Virus record (IMG/VR): IMGVR_UViG_3300020468_000043
Span: 1 to 30,163 of that record
DNA from: a virus
Length of the DNA: 30,163 nucleotides
Reading direction: 5' to 3' (one strand)
Made by a program: the position numbers and the translations under genes
Part shown: positions 1 to 30,163 of the stretch, in pieces
Layout: each line of letters starts with the position of its first letter
Numbering within the stretch: position 1 is the first letter of the stretch
The notes under the pieces: generated by a model
Seen by the model: the letters and a program-made list of their open reading frames with translations, nothing else
Databases searched by the model: none
Told to the model about the DNA's origin: nothing

Positions 1-1362
1 AAACTTAAACTCCTCGTACATGATGAATCAGGGAAGTGGGAAAAGCCAAACAACATACTCAACAACTGGCAAGTCACGAAAACAACGTTAAGATTAGGTA
101 GTAGAGTTATAGGTAAATGCATGATGGGATCTACTTCTAATGCTTTAGACAAAGGTGGTGAGAATTTTAAAAAACTATATAGAGATTCAGATGTCACAAA
201 AAGAAATAGAAATGGGCAGACTAGTTCTGGGCTTTATAGCCTTTTTATTCCTATGGAATGGAATTACGAAGGGTTTATTGATGAGTACGGTCAGCCAGTA
301 TTTGATACACCTAAAACAGAAGTTAAAGGACCTTATGAGGAATATATAGATACAGGCATATTAGATCATTGGCAAAACGAAGTTGATGGATTAAAAAATA
401 ATCCTGATGCTTTAAATGAATTTTACAGGCAGTTTCCTAGAACAGAGGAACATGCATTTAGAGATGAAACTAAAAATAGTATATTTAACTTAGCTAAAAT
501 ATACGAGCAAATAGATTATAATGAAGGTGTTAATAATAATACAGCTATAACTACAGGTAATTTTCAGTGGATAAATGGTATTAAAGATTCAAAAGTAATA
601 TTTTATCCAGATATTAACGGTAGATTTAATATTAGCTGGATACCACCAAGTCATTTGCAAAATAAAGTAACACAAACTAACAACGGTAAAAAACCGGGTA
701 ATGAACATATAGGTGCTTTTGGATGTGATAGTTATGATATATCTGGTACTGTTGACGGTCAAGGTTCTAAAGGAGCTTTACACGGATTAACAAAGTTTTC
801 GATGGAAGACGCTCCACCTAACAGTTTCTTTTTAGAATATTTAGCTAGACCTCAAACTGCAGAAATATTTTTTGAAGATGTACTAATGGCACTAGTTTTT
901 TATGGTATGCCTATACTTGCAGAAAATAATAAACCTAGACTTTTATACTATTTAAGACGTAGAGGTTATAGAGGTTATTCTATGAATAGACCAGATAAAG
1001 TTTGGAATAATTTGTCTAATACAGAAAGAGAAATAGGTGGTATACCAAACTCTAGTGAAGATATAAAACAAGCTCACGCTGCAGCAATTGAAATGTATAT
1101 ACAAGAACACGTTGGTTTAAAAAATGAAGGTGATTATGGTAATATGTATTTTAATAAAACATTAAATGATTGGTCGAAGTTTGACATAAATAATAGAACA
1201 AAATTTGATGCATCTATAAGTAGTGGTTTAGCTGTAATGGCTTGTAATAGAAACTTATATGCACCAAATATGCAAAAAGAAAAAAGAAAAATAAATATTG
1301 GATTTGCTAGATATGAAAATCAAGGCATGTCATCTAAAATAATAACAGAACAGTATGGCTAA
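1..1362 (+). CDS. terL: Terminase large subunit, C-terminal part (5' end cut by window edge)
   Basis: ATP-driven DNA packaging motor and headful or site-specific nuclease that docks on the portal. The frame is open from base 1, so the ATG at 121 is internal and the real start lies upstream; 453 codons are visible. The first residues read LLVHDE, a Walker B motif with the catalytic Glu at visible residue 9. A GSTSN segment near residue 43 fits the ATPase coupling motif. The nuclease half shows the acidic residues expected of an RNase H-like terminase nuclease: D243 in FGCDSYD, E308 in ILAENN, and D403 in TKFDA. The Walker A part is missing only because of the window edge. The gene overlaps the portal start by 8 bases, which fits translational coupling. 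Motif reading and position before the portal make the call strong. Confidence 0.93.
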   Translation, partial: KLKLLVHDESGKWEKPNNILNNWQVTKTTLRLGSRVIGKCMMGSTSNALDKGGENFKKLYRDSDVTKRNRNGQTSSGLYSLFIPMEWNYEGFIDEYGQPVFDTPKTEVKGPYEEYIDTGILDHWQNEVDGLKNNPDALNEFYRQFPRTEEHAFRDETKNSIFNLAKIYEQIDYNEGVNNNTAITTGNFQWINGIKDSKVIFYPDINGRFNISWIPPSHLQNKVTQTNNGKKPGNEHIGAFGCDSYDISGTVDGQGSKGALHGLTKFSMEDAPPNSFFLEYLARPQTAEIFFEDVLMALVFYGMPILAENNKPRLLYYLRRRGYRGYSMNRPDKVWNNLSNTEREIGGIPNSSEDIKQAHAAAIEMYIQEHVGLKNEGDYGNMYFNKTLNDWSKFDINNRTKFDASISSGLAVMACNRNLYAPNMQKEKRKINIGFARYENQGMSSKIITEQYG

Positions 1363-13596: not shown

Positions 13597-16500
13597 ATGG
13601 CAAATTTAAAACATCACTTTCGTAGAGGTCGTATGAACAAAGATCTTGACGAAAGATTATTGCCTAATGGTGAATACAGAGATGCGCAAAACGTAGAAAT
13701 AATTACTTCTGAAGGATCTGACGTAGGTTCTGTGCAAAACGTATTAGGCACTGTTTTAAAAAGAGGTAGAACATACGATGAAAATACTCAAGTATTAACA
13801 GAGTGGTCTGCAGACTCTAATTTATTTGATTTAATAAATCCAACTTGTATTGGATCATTTGTTGATACTCGAAATGATAATATATATTGGTTTATACATT
13901 ATTCTTTTTTAAATACTGCAGGCGATGCAATTACTAATGGTAGTGCTGTTGTAGAATATGAACACAGCACAGGCATTATCCAACCTATATTAGTTGATGT
14001 AAATAATATTTTAAATTTTAGTTCTAACTTTTTAATAACAAGTATAAATGTTATAGATGGTTTATTATTTTTTACAGATAATCAAACTGAACCTAAAAGA
14101 ATAAATATAAAAAAATTTAAAGAAGGTACTACTGTAGGTTCAGATCAATTCAAAGTACAAACAAAATACTTAGGTTCATCAGGCAATGATTTTACAGAAA
14201 ATGATATAACTGTAATAAAACTCTCACCAACCAAAAAGCCTGAATTAAGTTTATCTGCATCACAAAGAACAGGTGCAGGAACATCTATCGAACCAATAAA
14301 TCTAACTTCAACAAGTGTAAGTTTTAAAACAAGTGATGATGCTGATGGTGTATCAATAGCAACTGGTTCTGACTTAACATTAAATTTTCCAAATGCACCA
14401 AACTATATAAAAAAAGATATATTAAAATTATCATTTACAGAAAGTGATAGTATAGAAGGTGATGTAGTTTATGAAATAATTGTACGAGTTGCTGAAAAAG
14501 TTAATGATAAATCAATTAAAGTTAAAATAAATGTAATACCTGATGACGTACCTTTTGGTACTAATTTGCCTTGGGAAGTAGTTTTAGTTGAGGATGAGCC
14601 ATTATTTGAATTTAAGTTTGTAAGGTTTGCTTATAGATATAAGTATATAGATGGTGAATATTCTACTTTTTCACCTTTTTCAAATATAGCTTTTTTACCA
14701 TCAAATTTTGAATATAAATCATCTGATGGTTTTAATGTTGGTATGACTAATACTGCTAGAAAAATTGAAATACAAACTTTAGAAACACCACCTGTTGGAG
14801 TTATTGAAGTTGATTTACTTTATAAAGAAACTAATGACAATAACGTATATGTTGTTGATAGAATTAAAACAGAAGATTTATCTACAGAGTTTCCATATCA
14901 AATAAAAAGTGAAATAGTTGGTGATGTAATTGAGTCTAATCAAATACTTAGATCTTTTGATAATGTACCTATAAAAGCTCAAGCTCAAGAAATTAGTGGT
15001 AGTAGAGTACTTTATGGTAATTATACCGAAGGTTATGATATAGAAAATGATAGATTACCTGATATTGAAACAACACACGTATCAGCTGATATAACAACAG
15101 TTGGTTCACCTGAAAAATCTATTAAAACACAAAGAACTTATCAAGTTGGTGTAGTTTATCTAGATGCTTTTGGTAGAGAAACACCTGTTTTTTCTAAAAA
15201 AGAAGCAGCCATAACATTACCAAAACAACATGCAGATAAAGTAAATAGTTTAAGTTGTAAACTTTTAAACAACGCGCCTACATTTGCCACACATTTTAAA
15301 TATTTTGTTAAAGAAACTTCTAGTGAATACTATAATCTTGCATTAGATAGATTTTATTTAGCTGAAGATGGTAATATATGGTTGTCTTTTCCATCATCAG
15401 AAAGAAATAAAGTTACAGAAGAAGATTATTTAATTTTAAAAAAAGAGCATGACAAATCTGTATTTGTAGGTGTAGATGATAGTAAACCAAATCCAAGCGC
15501 TAGATATAAAGTTTTAGATATTAGAAATAACGTACCAGATTTTATAGCTACAGAACTTAAATCAATAGCCGTTGCAACGGTAGAATGTAGAGTTTCAGGT
15601 TCTGCTTTATTAAATGAGCCAGTAATTAATGGAATATCTTTTCAGTTTTTAGGTCCAACTGATGCTTTAAATACTAGCTTTTACAACGCATTTACTTCAG
15701 ATTCAGAAATAGTTATAACAACAACTAATGGTAGCACTAGAAGATATAAATTAGAAAAAGGTGGTCCAACAGGAAAACAAGAGCTTAGTCAAGAAATATA
15801 TGATATTACATTAAGGGAGTCTATAAAAGAAACTGATGAAGATATATTTATTAGTAGTAGTACTAGTGCATTAATAGATGGATCTAATAACGCAATTGAT
15901 ATTGAAATTGAAGTTTTAAAAAAAGAAAAAGTAGAAAAAGCTCAATTTTTTGGTAGATTTTTTCTTAAAATAAATAGAGATGAAATTTTTGATGAAAAAA
16001 TTATTCAAACATTTCCGTCTGCAACAACTGAATTTGTAAAAGTTAGAAATGTTAATGTAAAGCAGTTTTCAGAAAGTGATGTTAATGATGAAAAGAAAAA
16101 TGGTATTACTGATTTTTGTTGGACTGATACTCTTCCAGATGGTCGTTTTAGTTTAGATACTCCTGGACATCCTAAACAAGGAAAAAATGAGTTTATATTA
16201 CATTTGGCAGGGTTAAATGTAGGTAGTGGTAAACTTGATAAAAATAGTTTATACGAAAATGTCTTAACAACACCTTTTTCAACAAGCATAACAACAAATG
16301 GTACTTTTATACAATTTGAAAATAAAAATGGAGATAAAGGTTCAATATATAAAATTTTAAACACTAATGTAACCACTGAGTTTAGAGGTGAAAAATCTAG
16401 AAGAAAAAGAATATCTGGTAGAAGAAGAAATTTTGAAATTACTATAGAAAAAGTAACAAATGACATAACAAATAAAGGAAAAGAATATGATGATTCTTTT

Positions 16501-19500
16501 GATTACAACATTGATGCTACAGACAATAAAAGAAGTAGAATAACAAAAATAAATGTTATGAGAAGATTAGTTTCAACTAATTTTCTTGATGAAGATGACA
16601 TATCATCAAATGATCCAGCTATTTTTGAAGTTGAACCTAAAGAAACTGTAGATTTAGATATATATAATGAAGTTGGTAGTGCAATACCTATATTAAAAAC
16701 TGGATTAAAAGTAACAGGTACAAATATACCGGCTAATTCTGTTATAAATTTTTATGATCCTATAGGTAATACAATAATATTAGATAATAATACTACTGAT
16801 GCTATATCTTCAGGAACTGTATTAACTTTTACAGATCCAAAAGGTATATATAGCTTTACGTTAACAACAACTGGTACTATATCTAGTGGTATTGCAAATA
16901 TAACAATAGCAGATGGACAAGTTCATGGCCAAATTCATAATTTAGACTGGTGTAATTGCTATAGTTTTGGTCAAGGTGTTGAATCTAATAGAATAAGAGA
17001 TGATTTTAATGCTGTAACAATAGACAAAGGCCCAATTGTATCAACTGTATTAAATGAAAAATATAAACGTGTAATAAAATCAAATACTATAATTTATTCT
17101 GGTATATTTAACTCTACAGGTGGAGTAAATAGATTAAATGAATTTATTGCAGCTGAAAAAATAACTAAAGATTTAAATCCTATATATGGTAGCATACAAA
17201 AACTACATACTAGAGATGCTGATTTAATTGCTTTTTGTGAAGACAAAGTAATAAATATACTAGCAAACAAAGATGCTTTATTTAATGCTGATGGAGATGT
17301 TAACCTAACATCTACTAACAAGGTTTTGGGTCAAGCAATGCCTTATGCAGGTGAATATGGTATATCTAAAAATCCTGAGTCTTTTGTTTCTCATGCATAT
17401 AGAGTTTATTTTGCTGACAAAGCCAGAGGATCTGTTTTAAGGCTGTCTAAAGACGGTTTAACAGATATAGCTATGAAAGGTATGACAGACTTCTTTAACG
17501 ACAACCTACCATTGTCTACGTCAATAATAGGATCATATGATGAAAGAAAAGGATCATACAACATTACATTAAATAATCTTACAGTTTGTTTTAATGAAAG
17601 AGTTGATGGTTGGACTACATTTAAGTCTTATATACCAGAATCAGGTGTTTCTTTAAATAATACATATTATACTTATAAAAATGGTTATTTATATGCACAT
17701 ACTAACGAAAGAAGAAACTCGTTTTATCAAGTTTTAGCAAAAACAGCTGCTACCTTAACAAATAGTACTTCTTTATCTATAGCTACTCAACCTGGTGTAG
17801 ATAACATTGCTGTAGGTGATTTTGTTTTAGGTACTGGTATTGTTGGTGATGTTACTGTATCAAGTATATCTGTGCCAACTACTACTGTAGGTGGAGTAAC
17901 AATACCTAATAGATCTGTTAATACTACAGTTACACTTTCATCTAATCAAACTATAGCAAACAGTACTAATCTTGAGTTTATAAAAACTTCAGATACTTCT
18001 GTTACTTTATTAATAAATGATGAACCTTCAACTATTAAAGAATATAAAACTTTAAATTATGAAGGCAGTGATTCTAAATCATTTACATATTCTGGCACTA
18101 TATCTGTTGATGCTAGTGGTAGTTCACTTAGTCCAAATGTAACTATACCATCAGGAACTACTCTTGATGTTTTAAATAAATCTAATTATAATTCTAATCA
18201 AATAGCTCAACTAACAGAGTCTTCAGAAGCTGGTTGGTTTGCTGACTCTATAACAACAAACGCGCAGAGTGGTGATGTTAAGTTTTTTAAAAATAAAGAA
18301 GGTTTATGGAGCAATATAATATTAGGTGATAACACTATATTATCTAACATTGACACAAAAGAATTATCAGTACAAGGTTTAGGTTCTTTTTCAAGCATAA
18401 CAGGTGCAACAAGTCCTACACAGGCAGAATTAACTATAGCACTAAGTAGCAGTGATACTAATATTGATTTTACTGAAGCAACAAGTGTAATAAGAGGTAT
18501 TGCAAATGGTACAGATTTATCTAGTAATCCAGGTACTTTAGCTCTAACAATTAAACCAAAAACTGGATTTACTCTGACTGCTTCTGATCTTTCATTAGAT
18601 ACTGGTGTTAGCGTTAGTAGTATATCTTTTAGTCAAGATGGTGTTAATGTAATAGCAACACTAACTTTAAGTGGTACAATGCCATCATCAGACGCTACAA
18701 GAACTACTACAATTAGTGGTCTTGCTGTAGCAAAAAATTATACTGTAGCTGGAACTTTTGATACTATTGAAGAAAATACAACAAGCTTAGGATCAAGTGA
18801 TGATGTTGCATATTCTGGTAGTGGTATTTATAATACTACTGCTGCTACTGTTTTAACTAAAACATTTGTTGCAAGTGATAATCACTTTTTTAATATTAAA
18901 CCAACTGCTTTTATTGAAGAAGAAGATGCTAGTGCAATAAGTAGTTATGATATAACAGATGATTGGGCAACCACTACTGCTACTGTTAATGGCGCTGTTA
19001 CTAGTAGTATTGAAGTAAATTTAGATGGTGGTCATACAGGTATAGTTAATGGTATGGCTGTCACTGGCGTAGGCTTAGGTCAAAATGCTAGAGTTCATAG
19101 TATAGGTGGTAATACTTTAATTTTAACTTCCGCTAAAACAATACCAGATGGTACAACATTAACTTTTACATCAACATCTGTAACTTTTACTGTTAAATAT
19201 GTTTTTGGAATTAATAATCCTACAACTGATAAATTAGTTTTTACAGCAAAAGCTGTTGAAGTATTTGATCCAAATATTGTAGAATTAACTTCTTTTGTTA
19301 GCGGTAATAAAACAATATTAAGCCAGGGTGGAGATAGAACAATGGTAATACAAGGTTCAACTGGTTATGATGCTGAAACAAATCCAACTTTTACTTTTTC
19401 TAATGAAGCTGAAGGATCTGGAACAATAACTTTTAATCAACCAGGTAGCTCAGGTACTGCTGCAACAATATCATTCACTATATATGTAGGTTCAGTGCAA

Positions 19501-21138
19501 CCTGGTATGGGTGTTTCTGGTACGAATATACCTGATAATACAGTAGTTAATTATGTTGAAGTTAATCCTACAACTGATGCTATTACAATTCACTTAACAC
19601 TAGGAAGTGGTTCAGCTGCATCAACACCAACAGGCACAATAACTTTTAAAGAATTTTATAATAGTTCAACTCAAGCATATCAAGCAGCATCATCTACGAT
19701 AACTTTACCTGATACTGGTAGACTTTCTATAACAAGAAGTTATAATCCAGTAACTGCAACAAAATATTATAGATATTTTATTAGAGCAGTAGCTCCAGCA
19801 GATTTATCATCTAGTTTTTCTGGTAGTGCTACATTAGATTCTAGTAATGATTTTGCTTTATGTGAAGTTACTCAATATGCAAAAGCAACAATAAACATAA
19901 GTGCAACCTCTAATATAGTTGATTCAGCAAGTACTGCTATTAACATAAGAAACTTACCTGATACTGTTACTGTTTCAAGTGCTACTGCAGACTCTAAAAC
20001 AATAACTCTTTCTTCAAGTGACTCTAATGTTTTAATACAACCCGGCATGGTAGTAACTGGCACAAATATTTTAGCTAAAACAAGAGTTGAAAGTATAAGT
20101 GGTACAACTTTAGTTATAGATCAAACACCAACTACTGCGCCATCAGGTGAACTAAAATTTTTAGACAATGGTCAGTTTGATGCTTATGGTGAACCTGAGC
20201 CAGTAGAGCCATTTGGTTTAATACCATTTACAGTTACAGCATCTGTAGGTGGTACAACAACATTAACACAGCAAAGAGATATAAGTGCAGAAGATGATTT
20301 TGAATATAACGAAATAACACTGGTTGCTGCCGCTGTAGTTTCTGGTAATGTAGGTTTTTCTAGTGGCGCAGTACCAGATTCTCTTGCAGTTGGTTCTATT
20401 ATTACTTCAGATCGCATAACAGCTAATCACTCTGATAAAGTTATTACTGTTGGTGCAATACCATCTACGTCTGCAATAACATTAGCTGTTGATGGTGTAA
20501 CTTTAAGTAGTAATGCAAGCTTATATGTTACAACAGGTGATGAACTTGTTTTTTCAGCACCTTATGGTTGGGATTTTACTATAACAAATTTAAGTGAAGC
20601 TATAACTGGTAGTAATAAATACACTTTAACTGGTCAAATATCTGTAGCAAGATATGGTAATCAAAGTTTAACAGTAGGTTTAAATTTAAATAATATAATA
20701 GCAAGAGCAAATAGTGGATCAGGTGGTGCAACAACTACTACGATACCTATATCAACAATTTCAAGTACAGATTATTATATATCTAATATAATTATGTATC
20801 CAAAACAAGTAGCTGTAGGTACTGCTACTTCGGAGAATATAGGTTTTAGTGGTACAGTTATTGGTAATTGGGCTGGTAATACTGTTAGTGGTATTAAATT
20901 GTATTTAGGACCTGGTACAACAGGATTTAAAAATGATTCAGGTGGTACTTTAGTAACTGGTAGTGGTACAAGTGCTGATGTTCTTGTAAGTTTAACTTCA
21001 ACTTTAACTACAGCTAACCAAAGTCCTACAGTAACACAAGCAACTTTTTCATTTACATTAAGATTATCAGCAACAGCAGCAGCAGGACAATCATTAATAG
21101 TAGAACCAAGAATATTCTTACCAGATCAATATCAATAA
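13597..21138 (+). CDS. Giant tail muzzle / stabilisation protein with repeat-rich C-terminus
   Basis: 2513 residues, the largest complete gene here. The N-terminus (RMNKDLDERLLPNGEYRDA at residues 12-30, then SEGSDVGSVQNVLG) and a later segment (GEYGISKNPESF, ARGSVLRLSKDGLT, GMTDFF near residues 1255-1305) match my memory of the muzzle protein of crAss-like phages, a distant relative of the P22 gp10 tail stabiliser. It closes the lower tail and probably folds as a beta-propeller-like body. After about residue 1400 the protein turns into Ser/Thr-rich beta domains, including repeats of about 45-60 residues. Relatives are, as I recall, roughly 1000-1500 residues, so the second half looks like an added adhesion region. 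It begins 3 bases after the ring gene and ends 1 base before the next. Confidence 0.8.
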   Translation: MANLKHHFRRGRMNKDLDERLLPNGEYRDAQNVEIITSEGSDVGSVQNVLGTVLKRGRTYDENTQVLTEWSADSNLFDLINPTCIGSFVDTRNDNIYWFIHYSFLNTAGDAITNGSAVVEYEHSTGIIQPILVDVNNILNFSSNFLITSINVIDGLLFFTDNQTEPKRINIKKFKEGTTVGSDQFKVQTKYLGSSGNDFTENDITVIKLSPTKKPELSLSASQRTGAGTSIEPINLTSTSVSFKTSDDADGVSIATGSDLTLNFPNAPNYIKKDILKLSFTESDSIEGDVVYEIIVRVAEKVNDKSIKVKINVIPDDVPFGTNLPWEVVLVEDEPLFEFKFVRFAYRYKYIDGEYSTFSPFSNIAFLPSNFEYKSSDGFNVGMTNTARKIEIQTLETPPVGVIEVDLLYKETNDNNVYVVDRIKTEDLSTEFPYQIKSEIVGDVIESNQILRSFDNVPIKAQAQEISGSRVLYGNYTEGYDIENDRLPDIETTHVSADITTVGSPEKSIKTQRTYQVGVVYLDAFGRETPVFSKKEAAITLPKQHADKVNSLSCKLLNNAPTFATHFKYFVKETSSEYYNLALDRFYLAEDGNIWLSFPSSERNKVTEEDYLILKKEHDKSVFVGVDDSKPNPSARYKVLDIRNNVPDFIATELKSIAVATVECRVSGSALLNEPVINGISFQFLGPTDALNTSFYNAFTSDSEIVITTTNGSTRRYKLEKGGPTGKQELSQEIYDITLRESIKETDEDIFISSSTSALIDGSNNAIDIEIEVLKKEKVEKAQFFGRFFLKINRDEIFDEKIIQTFPSATTEFVKVRNVNVKQFSESDVNDEKKNGITDFCWTDTLPDGRFSLDTPGHPKQGKNEFILHLAGLNVGSGKLDKNSLYENVLTTPFSTSITTNGTFIQFENKNGDKGSIYKILNTNVTTEFRGEKSRRKRISGRRRNFEITIEKVTNDITNKGKEYDDSFDYNIDATDNKRSRITKINVMRRLVSTNFLDEDDISSNDPAIFEVEPKETVDLDIYNEVGSAIPILKTGLKVTGTNIPANSVINFYDPIGNTIILDNNTTDAISSGTVLTFTDPKGIYSFTLTTTGTISSGIANITIADGQVHGQIHNLDWCNCYSFGQGVESNRIRDDFNAVTIDKGPIVSTVLNEKYKRVIKSNTIIYSGIFNSTGGVNRLNEFIAAEKITKDLNPIYGSIQKLHTRDADLIAFCEDKVINILANKDALFNADGDVNLTSTNKVLGQAMPYAGEYGISKNPESFVSHAYRVYFADKARGSVLRLSKDGLTDIAMKGMTDFFNDNLPLSTSIIGSYDERKGSYNITLNNLTVCFNERVDGWTTFKSYIPESGVSLNNTYYTYKNGYLYAHTNERRNSFYQVLAKTAATLTNSTSLSIATQPGVDNIAVGDFVLGTGIVGDVTVSSISVPTTTVGGVTIPNRSVNTTVTLSSNQTIANSTNLEFIKTSDTSVTLLINDEPSTIKEYKTLNYEGSDSKSFTYSGTISVDASGSSLSPNVTIPSGTTLDVLNKSNYNSNQIAQLTESSEAGWFADSITTNAQSGDVKFFKNKEGLWSNIILGDNTILSNIDTKELSVQGLGSFSSITGATSPTQAELTIALSSSDTNIDFTEATSVIRGIANGTDLSSNPGTLALTIKPKTGFTLTASDLSLDTGVSVSSISFSQDGVNVIATLTLSGTMPSSDATRTTTISGLAVAKNYTVAGTFDTIEENTTSLGSSDDVAYSGSGIYNTTAATVLTKTFVASDNHFFNIKPTAFIEEEDASAISSYDITDDWATTTATVNGAVTSSIEVNLDGGHTGIVNGMAVTGVGLGQNARVHSIGGNTLILTSAKTIPDGTTLTFTSTSVTFTVKYVFGINNPTTDKLVFTAKAVEVFDPNIVELTSFVSGNKTILSQGGDRTMVIQGSTGYDAETNPTFTFSNEAEGSGTITFNQPGSSGTAATISFTIYVGSVQPGMGVSGTNIPDNTVVNYVEVNPTTDAITIHLTLGSGSAASTPTGTITFKEFYNSSTQAYQAASSTITLPDTGRLSITRSYNPVTATKYYRYFIRAVAPADLSSSFSGSATLDSSNDFALCEVTQYAKATINISATSNIVDSASTAINIRNLPDTVTVSSATADSKTITLSSSDSNVLIQPGMVVTGTNILAKTRVESISGTTLVIDQTPTTAPSGELKFLDNGQFDAYGEPEPVEPFGLIPFTVTASVGGTTTLTQQRDISAEDDFEYNEITLVAAAVVSGNVGFSSGAVPDSLAVGSIITSDRITANHSDKVITVGAIPSTSAITLAVDGVTLSSNASLYVTTGDELVFSAPYGWDFTITNLSEAITGSNKYTLTGQISVARYGNQSLTVGLNLNNIIARANSGSGGATTTTIPISTISSTDYYISNIIMYPKQVAVGTATSENIGFSGTVIGNWAGNTVSGIKLYLGPGTTGFKNDSGGTLVTGSGTSADVLVSLTSTLTTANQSPTVTQATFSFTLRLSATAAAGQSLIVEPRIFLPDQYQ
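16702..20553 (+). repeat. Six divergent beta-type repeats within the muzzle protein
   Basis: Six copies of a unit with the pattern G-x-x-V-x-G-T-x-I, then T/R-V-x-S-I, T-x-x-L and T-x-L-T-F: 16702-16833 (residues 1036-1079), 17809-17982 (1405-1462), 19039-19170 (1815-1858), 19486-19650 (1964-2018), 20020-20166 (2142-2190) and 20371-20553 (2259-2319). Clear examples are VTGTNIPANSV, VSGTNIPDNTV and VTGTNILAKTR. They are divergent in DNA and spaced irregularly. I recall the same motif in other aquatic phage adhesins; its fold is not known to me. Confidence 0.65.
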
Positions 21139-24367: not shown

Positions 24368-27300
24368 ATGCCAACAAAAAAAATTAAAAGAGATCAAAAC
24401 GGTAATTACGTTTTTGATAGTAATGGTAATTTTGTTTTTGAAATAGTCAATGAAGAAGTTGACAAATTAAAAGAAAATCAAGATGATTATGTAACTTTTA
24501 TTACTCCTGATGAAATAAAAGAAGCTAATTATAGTGAAGAAAAATTAAGTGATCTTATATCTAAAAAAAGTGTAATATATGGTATTGACACTGATGAAAG
24601 TATGGATTTTTTTGATGGTGTAAAGTTTAGAAAAATACCTGAAAGTGCAATGTTTGGAGAGTCTGCTAGTCAAGCATACCAATATGTAACTGGTGATGTT
24701 AGTGATACATTTTATTTTGAAAAAGACAAAGAAAAAGAAACTGCAAAACAAATAAATGATTATTTAAATAATGTAAAAGACATAAATTATGTTGAAACAG
24801 CTAAATTAACTAGTGGTAAAGTTTTTAATGAATATAAAAATTTACTATCTACAATAGATATTAGTGACGAAGATGTTAAACAAGCTTATAAAGACAAACA
24901 AAAAGAACTTTACATACAAAATATAGATAGTAGAACTCAAAAAATAGGTGTAGGTGGCGTGTTTAATCCTGCGCCAAAAGTAAGTAGTTTAGATCAAGAA
25001 TTATTTAATGTTAATTTTGGCAATAGTATTGAAGAGTTTGATGAATTAAATTCTGAAGAAATAGATGAAAATAAATTATTAATATTTAAGAAACAGTATT
25101 TAAATCAATTAAAAGATGAAACTGGAACAAAAATTAGAAGAAAATATAATTATATAGATGCTAAAAAAATTGATGCACTTGTTAAAAATGAAGCATTAGA
25201 GTTTGAAGAAAAATCAAAAAAACTAAATGAATTAGCTACTAATTTTAACAAAGATTATAATACATATATAAAAGAATTACAGGAATATAAAAAAAGTCCT
25301 AATCCTAGTAGTTTAATTGAATTAGATAAAAAACATCAAGATCTTTTAAATAGAAAAATTGAAATAACAAATTTATATGAATATGCAGAAGAAACTCAAA
25401 AGTATTTACCTAATGCAATTAGAGATTTTGGTGCCTCGTTTAATTATGCAGAAAATATTTCAACAAGTTTTAAAACTTTAGGTTTAGACATTGTTACTTC
25501 TGTAGTTGATTTAATAAGTTATCCTTTTCCAGAAAAATATAGAAAAGCATTTTTAGAGCCATTATATGACACTAAAGAAGAGTTTAGAATAGAAGCAGAT
25601 GGCTATGCAATACCACTAAAGTTTGAACAAGTAAATAGTATTAGTGATGCAGCATCTTGGGCTGTAGGATCTTTAGTACAACAAGTACCTTCAGTATCAA
25701 TGGCATTTACAAGAAAAGCAGCTTTGCCTTTGTTTTTTGCAAGTGGTTATGGATCAAAAGCTCAAGAAATTGCTTTAAACGAAAGAAATGCTTCAATTAG
25801 ACTTCTTAATAATACTCAGCTATTAAATAATCCAAATATATCTCTAGAAGAAACAATTAAAATACAAAATGAAATAGATGAAGATAAGAAAATATTAGGA
25901 GTAAATCCATTTAAAAAGTTTTCAGTTAAAATGGCACATGGTTTAGCTGAAGTTACTTTTGAAAAACTAGGTACTTTAACAAACTTAGCTATTTTAAGAA
26001 AAAACCTTAAAAACTTACCTTCAGCAAATGTAAAAGAAGCTAGTAAAAAATTACTTAAAGCTGTTCCTGCCGCTTTTACAAGAGAAGGTTTGTCTGAGTT
26101 TGCAACTACATATGTGCAAAACATGTCTGACGTATATTTATTAAACGAAGATAAAAATGTTTTTGATAACACTTTAGAGTCATTTGCTCAAGGTGGTTTA
26201 ATGGGATCTGTTTTTGGTTTAGCAGGTACTATACCTGGTGTAAGAAGATCTATAGTAAGTGAAATACAAACTAGAAAAGAAAAAAAGGAATTTGATAATA
26301 TTTTAAATGAAGCTAGTAGAATATTAGGTGTAAAAATAGATCATTTAGATAATGAAACAGTTAAAAAAACAACAGATAAAGAATTAAAACCTATAATACA
26401 AGAGCTTGTAGATAAGTATAATTTACATGATCAAAAAGTTTTTGAAAAATTAGTTTCTGGAAAAATAACTTTAGAGCAAGCAATAGAATTAGGTGATATA
26501 AATAGAAAAATTAGAAAACTAGATGATCAATATTATAGAGCTGCTTCAACTGCAGAAAATACAGATCTTGATGCAATAAATAAATTTTATGAAAATAAAT
26601 ATTTTGAATTATTAGAAGAAAGAGAAAGTTTGTTTGGCACAGATCAACAGCAGCTAGAAAATGAACAAAAACAGCTTGATGATCAATTTAATATGCAGGC
26701 TAAAGAAGGTTATAGAATTATTGAAAAAAGAATTAATCAACCTTTAAAACTACAACTTCAACAAGAATTTAATTTATTAAGTAGTGATGCTAAGAAACAA
26801 TATATTAATAAGGCTGCAAAAATAATTAAAGATCAAGATAAAATATCAACAGAGGATGCTTTAGACATAAAAAAACAAGCAATGCAAATTTATGTTGAAG
26901 AAAAAACTCTAGAAACTATTGATCAAAAGAATAAAATAGCAACTAATAGAGCAAATAAAAAACACTCTAAAACTCTAAATATCTTAGATGTAAAAGACGA
27001 GTCAGGTAAAGATGAAATGATACAGCTTCATAGAGATTATGTTGATGCTAAAGTTGCAAACGAACAAATCACAAAGCAAGAAGCAAATCAAGAACATAAG
27101 GAGTTTGTTAAAAATATTAATGAAGGAAAAGCTGATGGCAAATATTTAGAAATAGTAGAAGGATTTAATGATAATAAAGCTACAGCAATACATTATAGAT
27201 TAAATTCAGCACCTATTGGAAAAACATCAACTTTATCTCATGAAATATTACATCATGAAGTAACATTAAAGTATGGAGGTGATAAGGCTGCTATAGAAGA

Positions 27301-30163
27301 AGGAAAAAAACTTTTTAATTTTTTAGAAAAAAATGAACCTGATTTATATTTAAGAGTAAAATCAATATTAGATAAATCATATGGTGTAGATAATAATGCA
27401 TATTTTTTAGAAACATTTAATGTTTTAAGTGATGTGTTATCTAATATGAAAGAAGCTGTTAACAAAAAAGCTTTAATGGGTTATTTAAAAAACTTTTTAA
27501 ATAATAAGTTTAAAGTTTTTAATTTTTTAAAAAAAGATGAAGAAATATTTAATTTTGTTGTTGAATATAGCAAATATTCATATCACAAAGGTCGTGGATT
27601 TAAGCTGATACAGAGTCTGCTAGAATCAACAGATGATCCAGAAAAAGAAATAAAACCAGTTGATAGAGCTACAACAGAAAAAAAATATAGTAAAATTTTT
27701 AAAGATAATGTAAAAAGAAAATTTAATAATTTATCAGAAGGTGACGCCTTGCCAGCTAGGGATGTATGGCCATTTGAAAGTAATGAAAGAAAAGGTAGGC
27801 TAGCAATAGAAATTGCTGGATTATATGAAGGTACTTTAGTAAATGCACTAAGATCAGGTCAAGCTCAAATATTAAGAAGAGAAGGACTTTTTGAAGATTT
27901 TAAAGAAGATGCTAAAACTAATTTATCAATACACATACTTAATTTTAATCCTGAAAAAAACGATGATGTACATGGTTGGATTAATTCTCAAGTAGCTAAC
28001 AAAGCGCAAGACGCAATTAAAGGTCTTGGCATACAATTAGAAACACTTCCATTAGGTGAAACTGAAAAACAAATACCTCAACAACCAGAAGAAACAACAA
28101 TACAACAAAGACAAGTTGAAGAAGAAGCTTTACAAAAACAAACATTAAAGCAAAAAATATCAATAGATGATAAATCAACTACTATAAGTGAAATTAAAGA
28201 TATATTAGATAAAATTATTTCTGATTTTAATATAGGTGCTAGAGATGTAGAATCTACAACAAGAGTAAGTGATTTTGTAGCAATACTAAAAGAGAGAATA
28301 CAAGGTAAAAAACCTGGTACAGCCTTTAAATTATTAAGAAGAAAATTTAGAGTTGGTAATTCAACAAGAAATGAATATAGAGAAAACTTAATTAAAAATA
28401 AAAAAGCAATACTAGAAGGTTTAACAACAAGTTATTTATCAAGAGCTTTTCCACCTGCTATAGAAAAAAGAATTATAAATGAAGATGGTAGCACTAAATT
28501 TGTTAAATCTGAAGAGTGGTTAAAAATACCTAAGAAAAACATAGGTAAAAAACCTGGTTTTATTGATATAAGAGGTACAAAAGAAGAAGGATTTGAAGGT
28601 GATACAACTGGTAAGCAAGCAATGAGAAGAGTTGAAAATATTGCTGAAGCTGTTTCAGATGAAGTATTTTTAGCTAAATATATTGTTGATAATAAAGTAC
28701 CTCAAATGCCTTCAGAGATGTTAATGCAACAATTAGCTGGCGAAATAGGTTTAGATATATTTCAAGAAGAAATAAATAAATTTGATGAATTTAATGAAGC
28801 TTTAAATAAAGCTGAAGGTAATGATAAGCTTATAAATGAAATAAAAAATAGCGATAAATATAAAACTATTTCTAGTTTTATTGATAATCAAGCGGCACTT
28901 GCTAACGTTATAAAAAGATCTACAATATCAAACATTAGCATGCAGCTTGAGAGAGGTGTTACAAAATATAGTTCATTACAAGGTTTAGATGATAGTCAAT
29001 TAGAAGAAGCAATTAGATTTACTGAAGACTTTATAACATATAAGTCTAGTCCAGAAAAACAAGAATCTATAAATTTTGAAAATGAATTAAATAATTATTT
29101 AGAAGAAATAGCACCTTATTTGTCTGATTATTATAAAGAGGTTTTAGTACCTATTGAAGAACTATTAAATGATACTACACAAAGAAATAGAACCGCAAAT
29201 GCTAAAGAAATTACTGCTAGTAAAATTATTGATGCTTCATTAGATAAATTAAATAAAAAAAGAAAAGAACAAGGCTTAGCAGAAATAAGAATAGATAAAA
29301 TACCAGCACTTGGTTCTAGTCGTAAAGGTGATTTTAAAATAAAAGTAGGTAAAATAATTAAATTAATAGAATACAAATCAAAGTATAGTGATTTAATGGG
29401 TTCTGTTACATTTGTTTATAACAAGGATAACGGCACATTTACCATGAATATACCTAAGGGTAAAAAAGCTGAAATAACTAAGAAAATAATAAAAGAAAAA
29501 AATCTTACTGTTAAAACACGCGAAGGTAAAATTAAACTTAAAACAACATACTCTTCTTTAACTTCTTCTCAAAAGAAGATTTTTGATGAAGAAATGAAAA
29601 AAGAATATGATGAGTGGAAGAGCAATAATACTGCATTAGTAGAAAAACTAGAAAAATTATTATCAAGTAAAGAGATTATAGGTGTAAACGGTGTAATTGA
29701 TAAATATGAAAAAGCATTAAGTAATCTAAAAGTTGATATTACAAAGAGAAGAAAAAATGGTTCAGTAGTAGTAAACAGAGATCAAAGAAAAAAAGTACAA
29801 GACGATAAAAATGTACCTAAAACTTATACATTTGAAAGAATTGAGGGTTTAACCATGGACGATTCAATATCTCTTTATGCTGAACAAAATAATGATTTAA
29901 TGGTTATAAGTCCTCAGTTATATACTTTTGCTACTTCTCTTGAAGCATCAAATAGAACAGGTGTACCTCAATTACAAGCCAAAAAAGGTAATAAAATATT
30001 TTCACCAGGTATGGATGGTATATTTCATATAATAGGTTCAGCTAATTCTATAGCTTTTAGAGTTTCTTTTCAAATAACAAAAAATGATTTACAATACATA
30101 ATAAGACCAAAATCTAAAATTTCAAATGTTGAAATTATTGAATCATTAGTTAATGAAAAACCT
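24368..30163 (+). CDS. Giant multidomain virion protein with zinc-peptidase motif (3' end cut by window edge)
   Basis: Open for all 1932 codons from the ATG at 24368 to the window end, with no stop, so the true length is larger. In order: helical charged N-terminal region; hydrophobic Gly/Ala segments near residues 425-470 and 605-625 (GLMGSVFGLAGTIPG) that could contact membrane; helical region; a zinc-peptidase motif HEILH at 958-962 (H958, E959, H962) with a possible third ligand E1015 in FLETF; a segment at about 1140-1218 reading like sigma-70 region 2; and D1655 with E1668 and K1670 (GDFKI then IEYKS) as in PD-(D/E)xK nucleases. It follows two putative ejection proteins and resembles giant polyvalent phage proteins. 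It probably travels into the host with the DNA. Domain roles are inferred and the individual activities are unproven. Confidence 0.7.
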   Translation, partial: MPTKKIKRDQNGNYVFDSNGNFVFEIVNEEVDKLKENQDDYVTFITPDEIKEANYSEEKLSDLISKKSVIYGIDTDESMDFFDGVKFRKIPESAMFGESASQAYQYVTGDVSDTFYFEKDKEKETAKQINDYLNNVKDINYVETAKLTSGKVFNEYKNLLSTIDISDEDVKQAYKDKQKELYIQNIDSRTQKIGVGGVFNPAPKVSSLDQELFNVNFGNSIEEFDELNSEEIDENKLLIFKKQYLNQLKDETGTKIRRKYNYIDAKKIDALVKNEALEFEEKSKKLNELATNFNKDYNTYIKELQEYKKSPNPSSLIELDKKHQDLLNRKIEITNLYEYAEETQKYLPNAIRDFGASFNYAENISTSFKTLGLDIVTSVVDLISYPFPEKYRKAFLEPLYDTKEEFRIEADGYAIPLKFEQVNSISDAASWAVGSLVQQVPSVSMAFTRKAALPLFFASGYGSKAQEIALNERNASIRLLNNTQLLNNPNISLEETIKIQNEIDEDKKILGVNPFKKFSVKMAHGLAEVTFEKLGTLTNLAILRKNLKNLPSANVKEASKKLLKAVPAAFTREGLSEFATTYVQNMSDVYLLNEDKNVFDNTLESFAQGGLMGSVFGLAGTIPGVRRSIVSEIQTRKEKKEFDNILNEASRILGVKIDHLDNETVKKTTDKELKPIIQELVDKYNLHDQKVFEKLVSGKITLEQAIELGDINRKIRKLDDQYYRAASTAENTDLDAINKFYENKYFELLEERESLFGTDQQQLENEQKQLDDQFNMQAKEGYRIIEKRINQPLKLQLQQEFNLLSSDAKKQYINKAAKIIKDQDKISTEDALDIKKQAMQIYVEEKTLETIDQKNKIATNRANKKHSKTLNILDVKDESGKDEMIQLHRDYVDAKVANEQITKQEANQEHKEFVKNINEGKADGKYLEIVEGFNDNKATAIHYRLNSAPIGKTSTLSHEILHHEVTLKYGGDKAAIEEGKKLFNFLEKNEPDLYLRVKSILDKSYGVDNNAYFLETFNVLSDVLSNMKEAVNKKALMGYLKNFLNNKFKVFNFLKKDEEIFNFVVEYSKYSYHKGRGFKLIQSLLESTDDPEKEIKPVDRATTEKKYSKIFKDNVKRKFNNLSEGDALPARDVWPFESNERKGRLAIEIAGLYEGTLVNALRSGQAQILRREGLFEDFKEDAKTNLSIHILNFNPEKNDDVHGWINSQVANKAQDAIKGLGIQLETLPLGETEKQIPQQPEETTIQQRQVEEEALQKQTLKQKISIDDKSTTISEIKDILDKIISDFNIGARDVESTTRVSDFVAILKERIQGKKPGTAFKLLRRKFRVGNSTRNEYRENLIKNKKAILEGLTTSYLSRAFPPAIEKRIINEDGSTKFVKSEEWLKIPKKNIGKKPGFIDIRGTKEEGFEGDTTGKQAMRRVENIAEAVSDEVFLAKYIVDNKVPQMPSEMLMQQLAGEIGLDIFQEEINKFDEFNEALNKAEGNDKLINEIKNSDKYKTISSFIDNQAALANVIKRSTISNISMQLERGVTKYSSLQGLDDSQLEEAIRFTEDFITYKSSPEKQESINFENELNNYLEEIAPYLSDYYKEVLVPIEELLNDTTQRNRTANAKEITASKIIDASLDKLNKKRKEQGLAEIRIDKIPALGSSRKGDFKIKVGKIIKLIEYKSKYSDLMGSVTFVYNKDNGTFTMNIPKGKKAEITKKIIKEKNLTVKTREGKIKLKTTYSSLTSSQKKIFDEEMKKEYDEWKSNNTALVEKLEKLLSSKEIIGVNGVIDKYEKALSNLKVDITKRRKNGSVVVNRDQRKKVQDDKNVPKTYTFERIEGLTMDDSISLYAEQNNDLMVISPQLYTFATSLEASNRTGVPQLQAKKGNKIFSPGMDGIFHIIGSANSIAFRVSFQITKNDLQYIIRPKSKISNVEIIESLVNEKP

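Follow-up and report, generated by a model that had tools for sequence, protein, structure and literature searches.

A divergent sigma-70 region 2-like domain within a giant, probably virion-borne protein of uncultured marine phages

Does a giant phage protein carry a piece of a sigma factor, and could that piece act on host transcription as soon as the phage enters the cell? The question is raised by a 30,163-nucleotide stretch of IMG/VR virus record IMGVR_UViG_3300020468_000043, analysed here at its full length (the window). The initial annotation had noticed in a very large reading frame a segment whose motif order parallels that of sigma-70 region 2, and had proposed that such a domain, delivered by the virion, could redirect host RNA polymerase to phage promoters at once on entry.

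The window is a virus fragment with terminase and portal genes, the phage is an uncultured marine phage of Bacteroidota type, and the structural genes resemble those of Cellulophaga phages of the phi38:1 type. According to the ORF list and its translation, the giant gene (24368..30163, + strand) encodes 1932 residues and is truncated where the contig stops; intact relatives of the protein are 2,000-3,500 aa long. Its position in the gene order is that of the giant genes of the relative L002 and of phi38:1 (gp101), and the protein is 26% identical to phi38:1 gp101 across residues 369-619. This gene order and the weak homology to a phi38:1 protein annotated as structural suggest that the giant is probably a virion protein. 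Furthermore, a metallopeptidase motif lies in this giant multidomain protein, among terminase, portal and structural neighbours, as is characteristic of polyvalent proteins, the peptidase being recognized at the level of the motif. A second giant gene of the window (13597-21138) encodes a 2513-aa protein of the virion structural protein family phrog_14478, whose C-terminal half looks repetitive. The lineage is abundant, as at least 600 IMG/VR contigs have a terminase matching that of the window (121-1362), with 75-89% identity in the best 80 of them, and no close cultured phage of the terminase lineage was found among the matches listed.

The segment at 27740-28021 (+) is stop-free and in frame, corresponds to residues 1125-1218 of the ORF 24368-30163, and holds the motifs in the order first described, namely LFEDFKEDAKTN from residue 1174, LNFNPEKNDD (with its F at residue 1193) and HGWINSQVANKAQDAIK at residues 1202-1218. 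Based on an AlphaFold2 model of 27698-28090, VIA and the family profile test, the sigma-70 region 2-like domain was delimited to 27773..28042 (+). Predicted helix 65-81 (27890..27940, +) matches in the hhalign register the helix of sigma region 2.2, which faces the core in known sigmas, and predicted helix 91-109 (27968..28024, +), which includes GWINSQVANKA, matches that of regions 2.3/2.4, which faces the -10 DNA in known sigmas. The alignment register differs from the one originally read: sigma70 Y430 is matched by a conserved W and Q437 by the N in ANKA, so that QDAIK does not correspond to RQAI, and the pairing of these two motifs was mistaken.

Relatives of the domain were collected by chaining, where a scan with the window protein gave one relative, and this relative together with alignments gave 42 distinct further copies, all of which sit within very large proteins. 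In total, about 43 distinct IMG/VR relatives contain a domain of ~75 residues within proteins of 2,000-3,500 residues, with the common core LDxLIAAKYK..VPxDFVxKVYxELTxHIKNFNPExNDSLFGWINSQIANKAGNVYNREYK, and the window copy is a diverged member of this family. A second clade (clade B; L150-L157, L159, and L162) was found subsequently. The domain, sometimes in diverged form, occurs in 4 of 15 records with close terminases, most of the 15 being short fragments; G036 and G038 have the same terminase, yet no sigma-like domain was detected in their giants. No relatives of the domain were found in bacterial and archaeal genome contigs, or by tblastn in isolated phages.

Some of the searches would be compatible with a helical segment that looks like sigma region 2 by chance. 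When single sequences were scanned with Pfam, neither the window copy nor long members with their flanks gave a sigma match, probably because flanks and divergence mask the domain, and hmmsearch of the family with narrow profiles retrieved no sigma from PDB sequences. However, when members were trimmed to the core before the scan, the profile search of homologues suggested along with the initial annotation did match Sigma70_r2 (PF04542). L152 reached 29.1 bits (E 8.6e-7, profile positions 1-67 of 71), above the curated Pfam cut-off of 24 bits, which contradicts a chance origin, and sub-threshold matches in the same register were obtained for L031 (E 7.2e-4), L151 (E 8.4e-4), L035, L052, L154, L156, and L159. 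Against a reference alignment of 36 sigma region-2 sequences out of plasmid and E. coli records, the main clade scored 29.9 in hhalign (76%, pairwise E 2.4e-5), whereas 200 column permutations gave a mean of 9.5 (sd 2.1) and a maximum of 15.6. Together with the second clade, the family scored 45.5 (94.4%, 73 columns), where permutations reached 16.0 at most; the phages' own stand-alone sigma, a genuine sigma factor used as a positive comparison, scored 47.1 (95.6%). Among 68 segments taken along the giant, the one with the domain ranked at the top (27.4), followed by an overlapping one (25.0) and the next at 20.2. With the motif order kept in about 43 distinct relatives and permutation nulls far below the observed scores, the resemblance to region 2 is above chance, as had been claimed. 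The profile similarity is to ECF sigma and not to groups 1-3, which makes the ECF type, as judged from these profiles, the nearest sigma class of the segment. An origin of the domain from the stand-alone sigma gene of the phage was also considered and rejected, as hhalign scores of 10.9 and 11.2 amount to no similarity; of the two, ECF sigma is thus the nearer relative.

The structure prediction that had been suggested as a further check gave the same answer. Models of the window copy (27698-28090) and of the relative L017, obtained with AlphaFold2 (AF2) without templates, match sigma factors almost exclusively, and this agreement of two independent models also argues against chance. The confidence is moderate for the window copy (core pLDDT about 75-84), and the core pLDDT is 89-96 for L017. 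In VIA, rows 1-35 for the window copy consist entirely of sigma factors, led by 8b3z_A (Z 8.1, rmsd 2.4, 80 residues), with the first unrelated row at Z 4.5, and rows 1-50 for L017 are all sigma factors including T4 gp55 (7d7c_F) at Z 6.6. Foldseek against the PDB and a viral library was consistent with these matches. Because a VIA Z of 7-8 is common among helical models, and is therefore middling and compatible with chance, we put weight on the uniform identity of the rows and on the independent sequence evidence. The models predict that the helical fold of region 2 is present. Taken together, a chance resemblance is very improbable, and the segment is almost certainly a genuine, divergent homologue of sigma-70 region 2, a known kind of domain in a new setting.

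The residues that are kept and lost bear on what the domain may do. At the positions of sigma70 Y430 and Q437, which are established -10-reading positions of sigma factors, the family has an aromatic residue in every member (W 83%, Y 16%) and N in 95%, respectively, and the window copy has W and N. The DNA-facing helix has highly conserved polar residues (N-D, NSQ, NK, and N), conserved beyond what is seen among sigma factors. The usual core-contact residues of region 2.2 (D403, Q406, and E407) are mostly replaced in the main clade, where D403 is kept in 51% with E in a further 13%, and where the equivalents of Q406 and E407 are D37/S18/Q11 and K55/D25, respectively. In the second clade, D403 is found in 9 of 10 members and Q406 in 4 of 10. 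The core-facing helix is still acidic, and conservation is greater on the DNA-facing than on the core-facing side. Region 4, the HTH of sigma factors that contacts the -35 element and the beta flap, was not found in the giant; the best of 69 windows along it scored 15.4 (4%) and none was near the module, whereas the stand-alone sigma of the phages scored 34.2 (91%) as a positive control. A second region-2 or region-4 segment elsewhere was considered as well, and two downstream windows scored 20 over only 23-28 columns, which is unconvincing. The domain is a member of the region 2 superfamily and is not one of the complete sigma factors.

The sigma-like module is surrounded by recurring parts. 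A predicted metallopeptidase of the zincin-like kind is marked by HEILH (27239..27253, +), ~235 residues before the sigma-like motif, and an HExxH occurs 211-444 residues upstream of the domain in 43 of 43 family members; Pfam gave no metallopeptidase match, and the assignment is made at motif level. The linker motif [KR][FY]S[KRS] (KFSK-like) was found 86 times in the 43 giants versus 14.9 expected, at recurring positions that precede the sigma-like domain, lie about 300-340 residues downstream of it, or follow a HAD-like domain. In the window, the motif count places KYSK before the module (27683..27694, +) and KYSS after it (28964..28975, +) as candidate processing sites. Downstream of the sigma-like domain, the segment 28178..29002 (+) aligns (alignment A6) to a ~220-residue domain that is conserved in relatives, where it follows their sigma-like domain (LVQMERN ... 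GTRKDxLA ... LAFDATxEV); the window copy is strongly diverged, and no Pfam or PDB match was found for this domain. The HAD-like DxDxT domain (VLDFDDT) is seen in the C-terminal half of the giants of L002, L004, L011, L015, L035, L064, and many other relatives, and in some it was not seen by motif; its location is past the end of the window contig.

The related phages also have a stand-alone sigma of ~250 residues with regions 2 and 4, which is highly conserved among them (L027 1396-2151, L028 1387-2139, and about 24 further loci, L078-L101) and is present in 11 of 35 records, among them each of the 8 that measure at least 60 kb. No beta'-type RNA polymerase (PF00623) was detected in the related phages under conditions where the positive control was detected, and the search with PF00940 had no positive control and is given little weight. 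The stand-alone sigma together with no detected phage RNA polymerase suggests, at the level of gene content, that these phages rely on a host-type RNA polymerase.

The sigma gene of this lineage stands downstream of phage-type promoter-like elements. In three relatives, GATAATAT occurs 13 times versus 0.3 expected before genes opposite to the structural strand, accompanied by a fixed block upstream of it, and the two together can be written as ACAAACTAAATACGA-N9-GATAATA. CAAACT and GATAAT are 17 bases apart, which is the usual sigma-70 spacing. With up to 3 mismatches, the element occurs 96 times in 17 of 20 records (G030, G022, and G023, loci L254-L265, and 14 further related records), with nearly all copies of a record on the same strand, and its reversed control occurs 0 times. 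In G030, G022, and G023 it precedes genes in the neighbourhood of the stand-alone sigma, and in G030 a start codon comes 5 bases past the element, so transcripts from it would be leaderless. Bacteroidota-type promoters (TAnnTTTG) were not enriched in the three relatives. The element is absent from the window, which covers the structural region only, and phi38:1 has no detected element, stand-alone sigma, or sigma-like domain. G036 and G038, in which no sigma-2 domain was detected, have both the element and the stand-alone sigma. Thus, the element probably belongs to the stand-alone sigma, and the simplest view is that this protein recognizes it. The domain of the giant could set the same system going, but the element does not depend on it for its existence.

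As for the role of the domain, we infer a series of events consisting of packaging, injection, cleavage, polymerase binding, and a promoter effect. The giant would be packaged in the virion and enter the cell with the DNA, and the upstream metallopeptidase or another protease would cut it at the KFSK-like linkers. This would free a module composed of the sigma-2 domain and the conserved ~220-residue domain, which may act on host RNA polymerase or on melted -10 DNA in the first minutes. Like T4 gp55, such a module would be a factor of the region-2-only kind, and would start or bias early transcription ahead of the synthesis of the phage's own 250-aa sigma. That the domain acts on transcription in this manner, as an injected and processed region-2-only factor, has about an even chance of being correct. 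In its favour speak the homology, the retained -10-facing residues, the metallopeptidase and linker motifs, the stand-alone sigma with no detected beta'-type polymerase, and the precedent of gp55; against it speak the undetected region 4, the mostly replaced Q406 and E407 equivalents of the main clade, the divergence of the window copy, and relatives such as G036 and G038 that have the element and a stand-alone sigma but no detected domain. The more specific proposal, in which the sigma domain is injected from the virion, released by its own metallopeptidase and steers host polymerase to early promoters, is to be taken as tentative and somewhat the less probable of the two. The mechanism put forward in the initial annotation is a good hypothesis and is unproven.

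Alternatively, the sigma-2 fold may have been recruited to a task unrelated to transcription start, for instance binding of single-stranded or melted phage DNA while the genome is packaged, ejected, or replicated, or it may be purely structural in the giant. The replacement of the Q406 and E407 equivalents in the main clade, the giant without region 4, the relatives from which the domain is missing, and the N-D, NSQ, NK, and N residues would all agree with such a role. However, what is conserved in common with sigma factors is the -10-reading pattern (W/Y and N), and clade B retains the core-contact residues D403 and Q406 to the extent given above, and we regard a borrowed fold as unlikely, albeit the most serious of the alternatives. 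The module might also be an injected inhibitor, which would sit on the beta' clamp helices of the host polymerase, where sigma binds, or on melted DNA, and silence host transcription, letting the phage sigma take over. A region 2 without region 4 could bind the core without directing it, and phages that make their own sigma would profit from emptying the host polymerase. The greater conservation of the DNA-facing side than of the core-facing side speaks against inhibition, which seems improbable to us.

Compared with known systems, the domain shares with sigma-70 region 2 (PF04542) of the ECF type, such as E. coli RpoE, the fold, the helix order, the profile similarity, and the register ED-F-[IV] ... 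F-[ND]-P-E ... W-x6-N. Unlike ECF sigma, it is embedded in a protein of 2,000-3,500 residues without region 4, contains extra conserved polar residues (ND, NSQ, and NK), and has its Q-E core contacts mostly replaced. T4 gp55 is likewise a region-2 homologue without region 4 that directs initiation, and its acidic residues contact the clamp helices (PMC7892883); the domain resembles it (7d7c_F) in lacking region 4, in its acidic core-facing helix, and in the VIA match. The gp55 type is recognized by a helix-loop-helix and a clamp-binding tail, and the L017 model has a long last helix (H96-128). Unlike gp55, a small free protein made late that partners with gp33 and gp45 (PMC7892883), the domain lies within a giant protein that would probably be made late and delivered early. 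At the same place in the gene order, gp101 of phi38:1 (Callevirus) is annotated as a structural protein but differs in its size (1691 aa), in its unmatched sigma-like segment, and in that no HExxH was seen in it; Sigma70_r2 gave no match in phage phi38:1.

The giant is similar in organization to polyvalent proteins (PMC5512222), being multidomain, encoded among structural genes, and equipped with an HExxH motif and other catalytic-looking domains. Iyer et al. (2017) proposed that metallopeptidases process polyvalent proteins (PMC5512222), and the HExxH and linker motifs around the domain fit this proposal. In their census, sigma has 0 mentions and the examples of a transcription 'jump-start' are polymerases and polymerase modifiers (PMC5512222), and we found no earlier report in the literature in which a polyvalent virion protein carries a sigma domain. 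Early takeover of transcription by virion-delivered proteins is represented by the N4 virion RNA polymerase and T4 Alt (PMC5512222, PMC4496689). An injected promoter-reading domain, if true, would be a third way to seize transcription on entry, and would make it testable how an abundant marine lineage begins its first transcripts, with the promoter-like element as a concrete template. N4 delivers a whole polymerase and Alt modifies that of the host, whereas the marine phages described here would deliver a candidate promoter-reading domain for the host polymerase.
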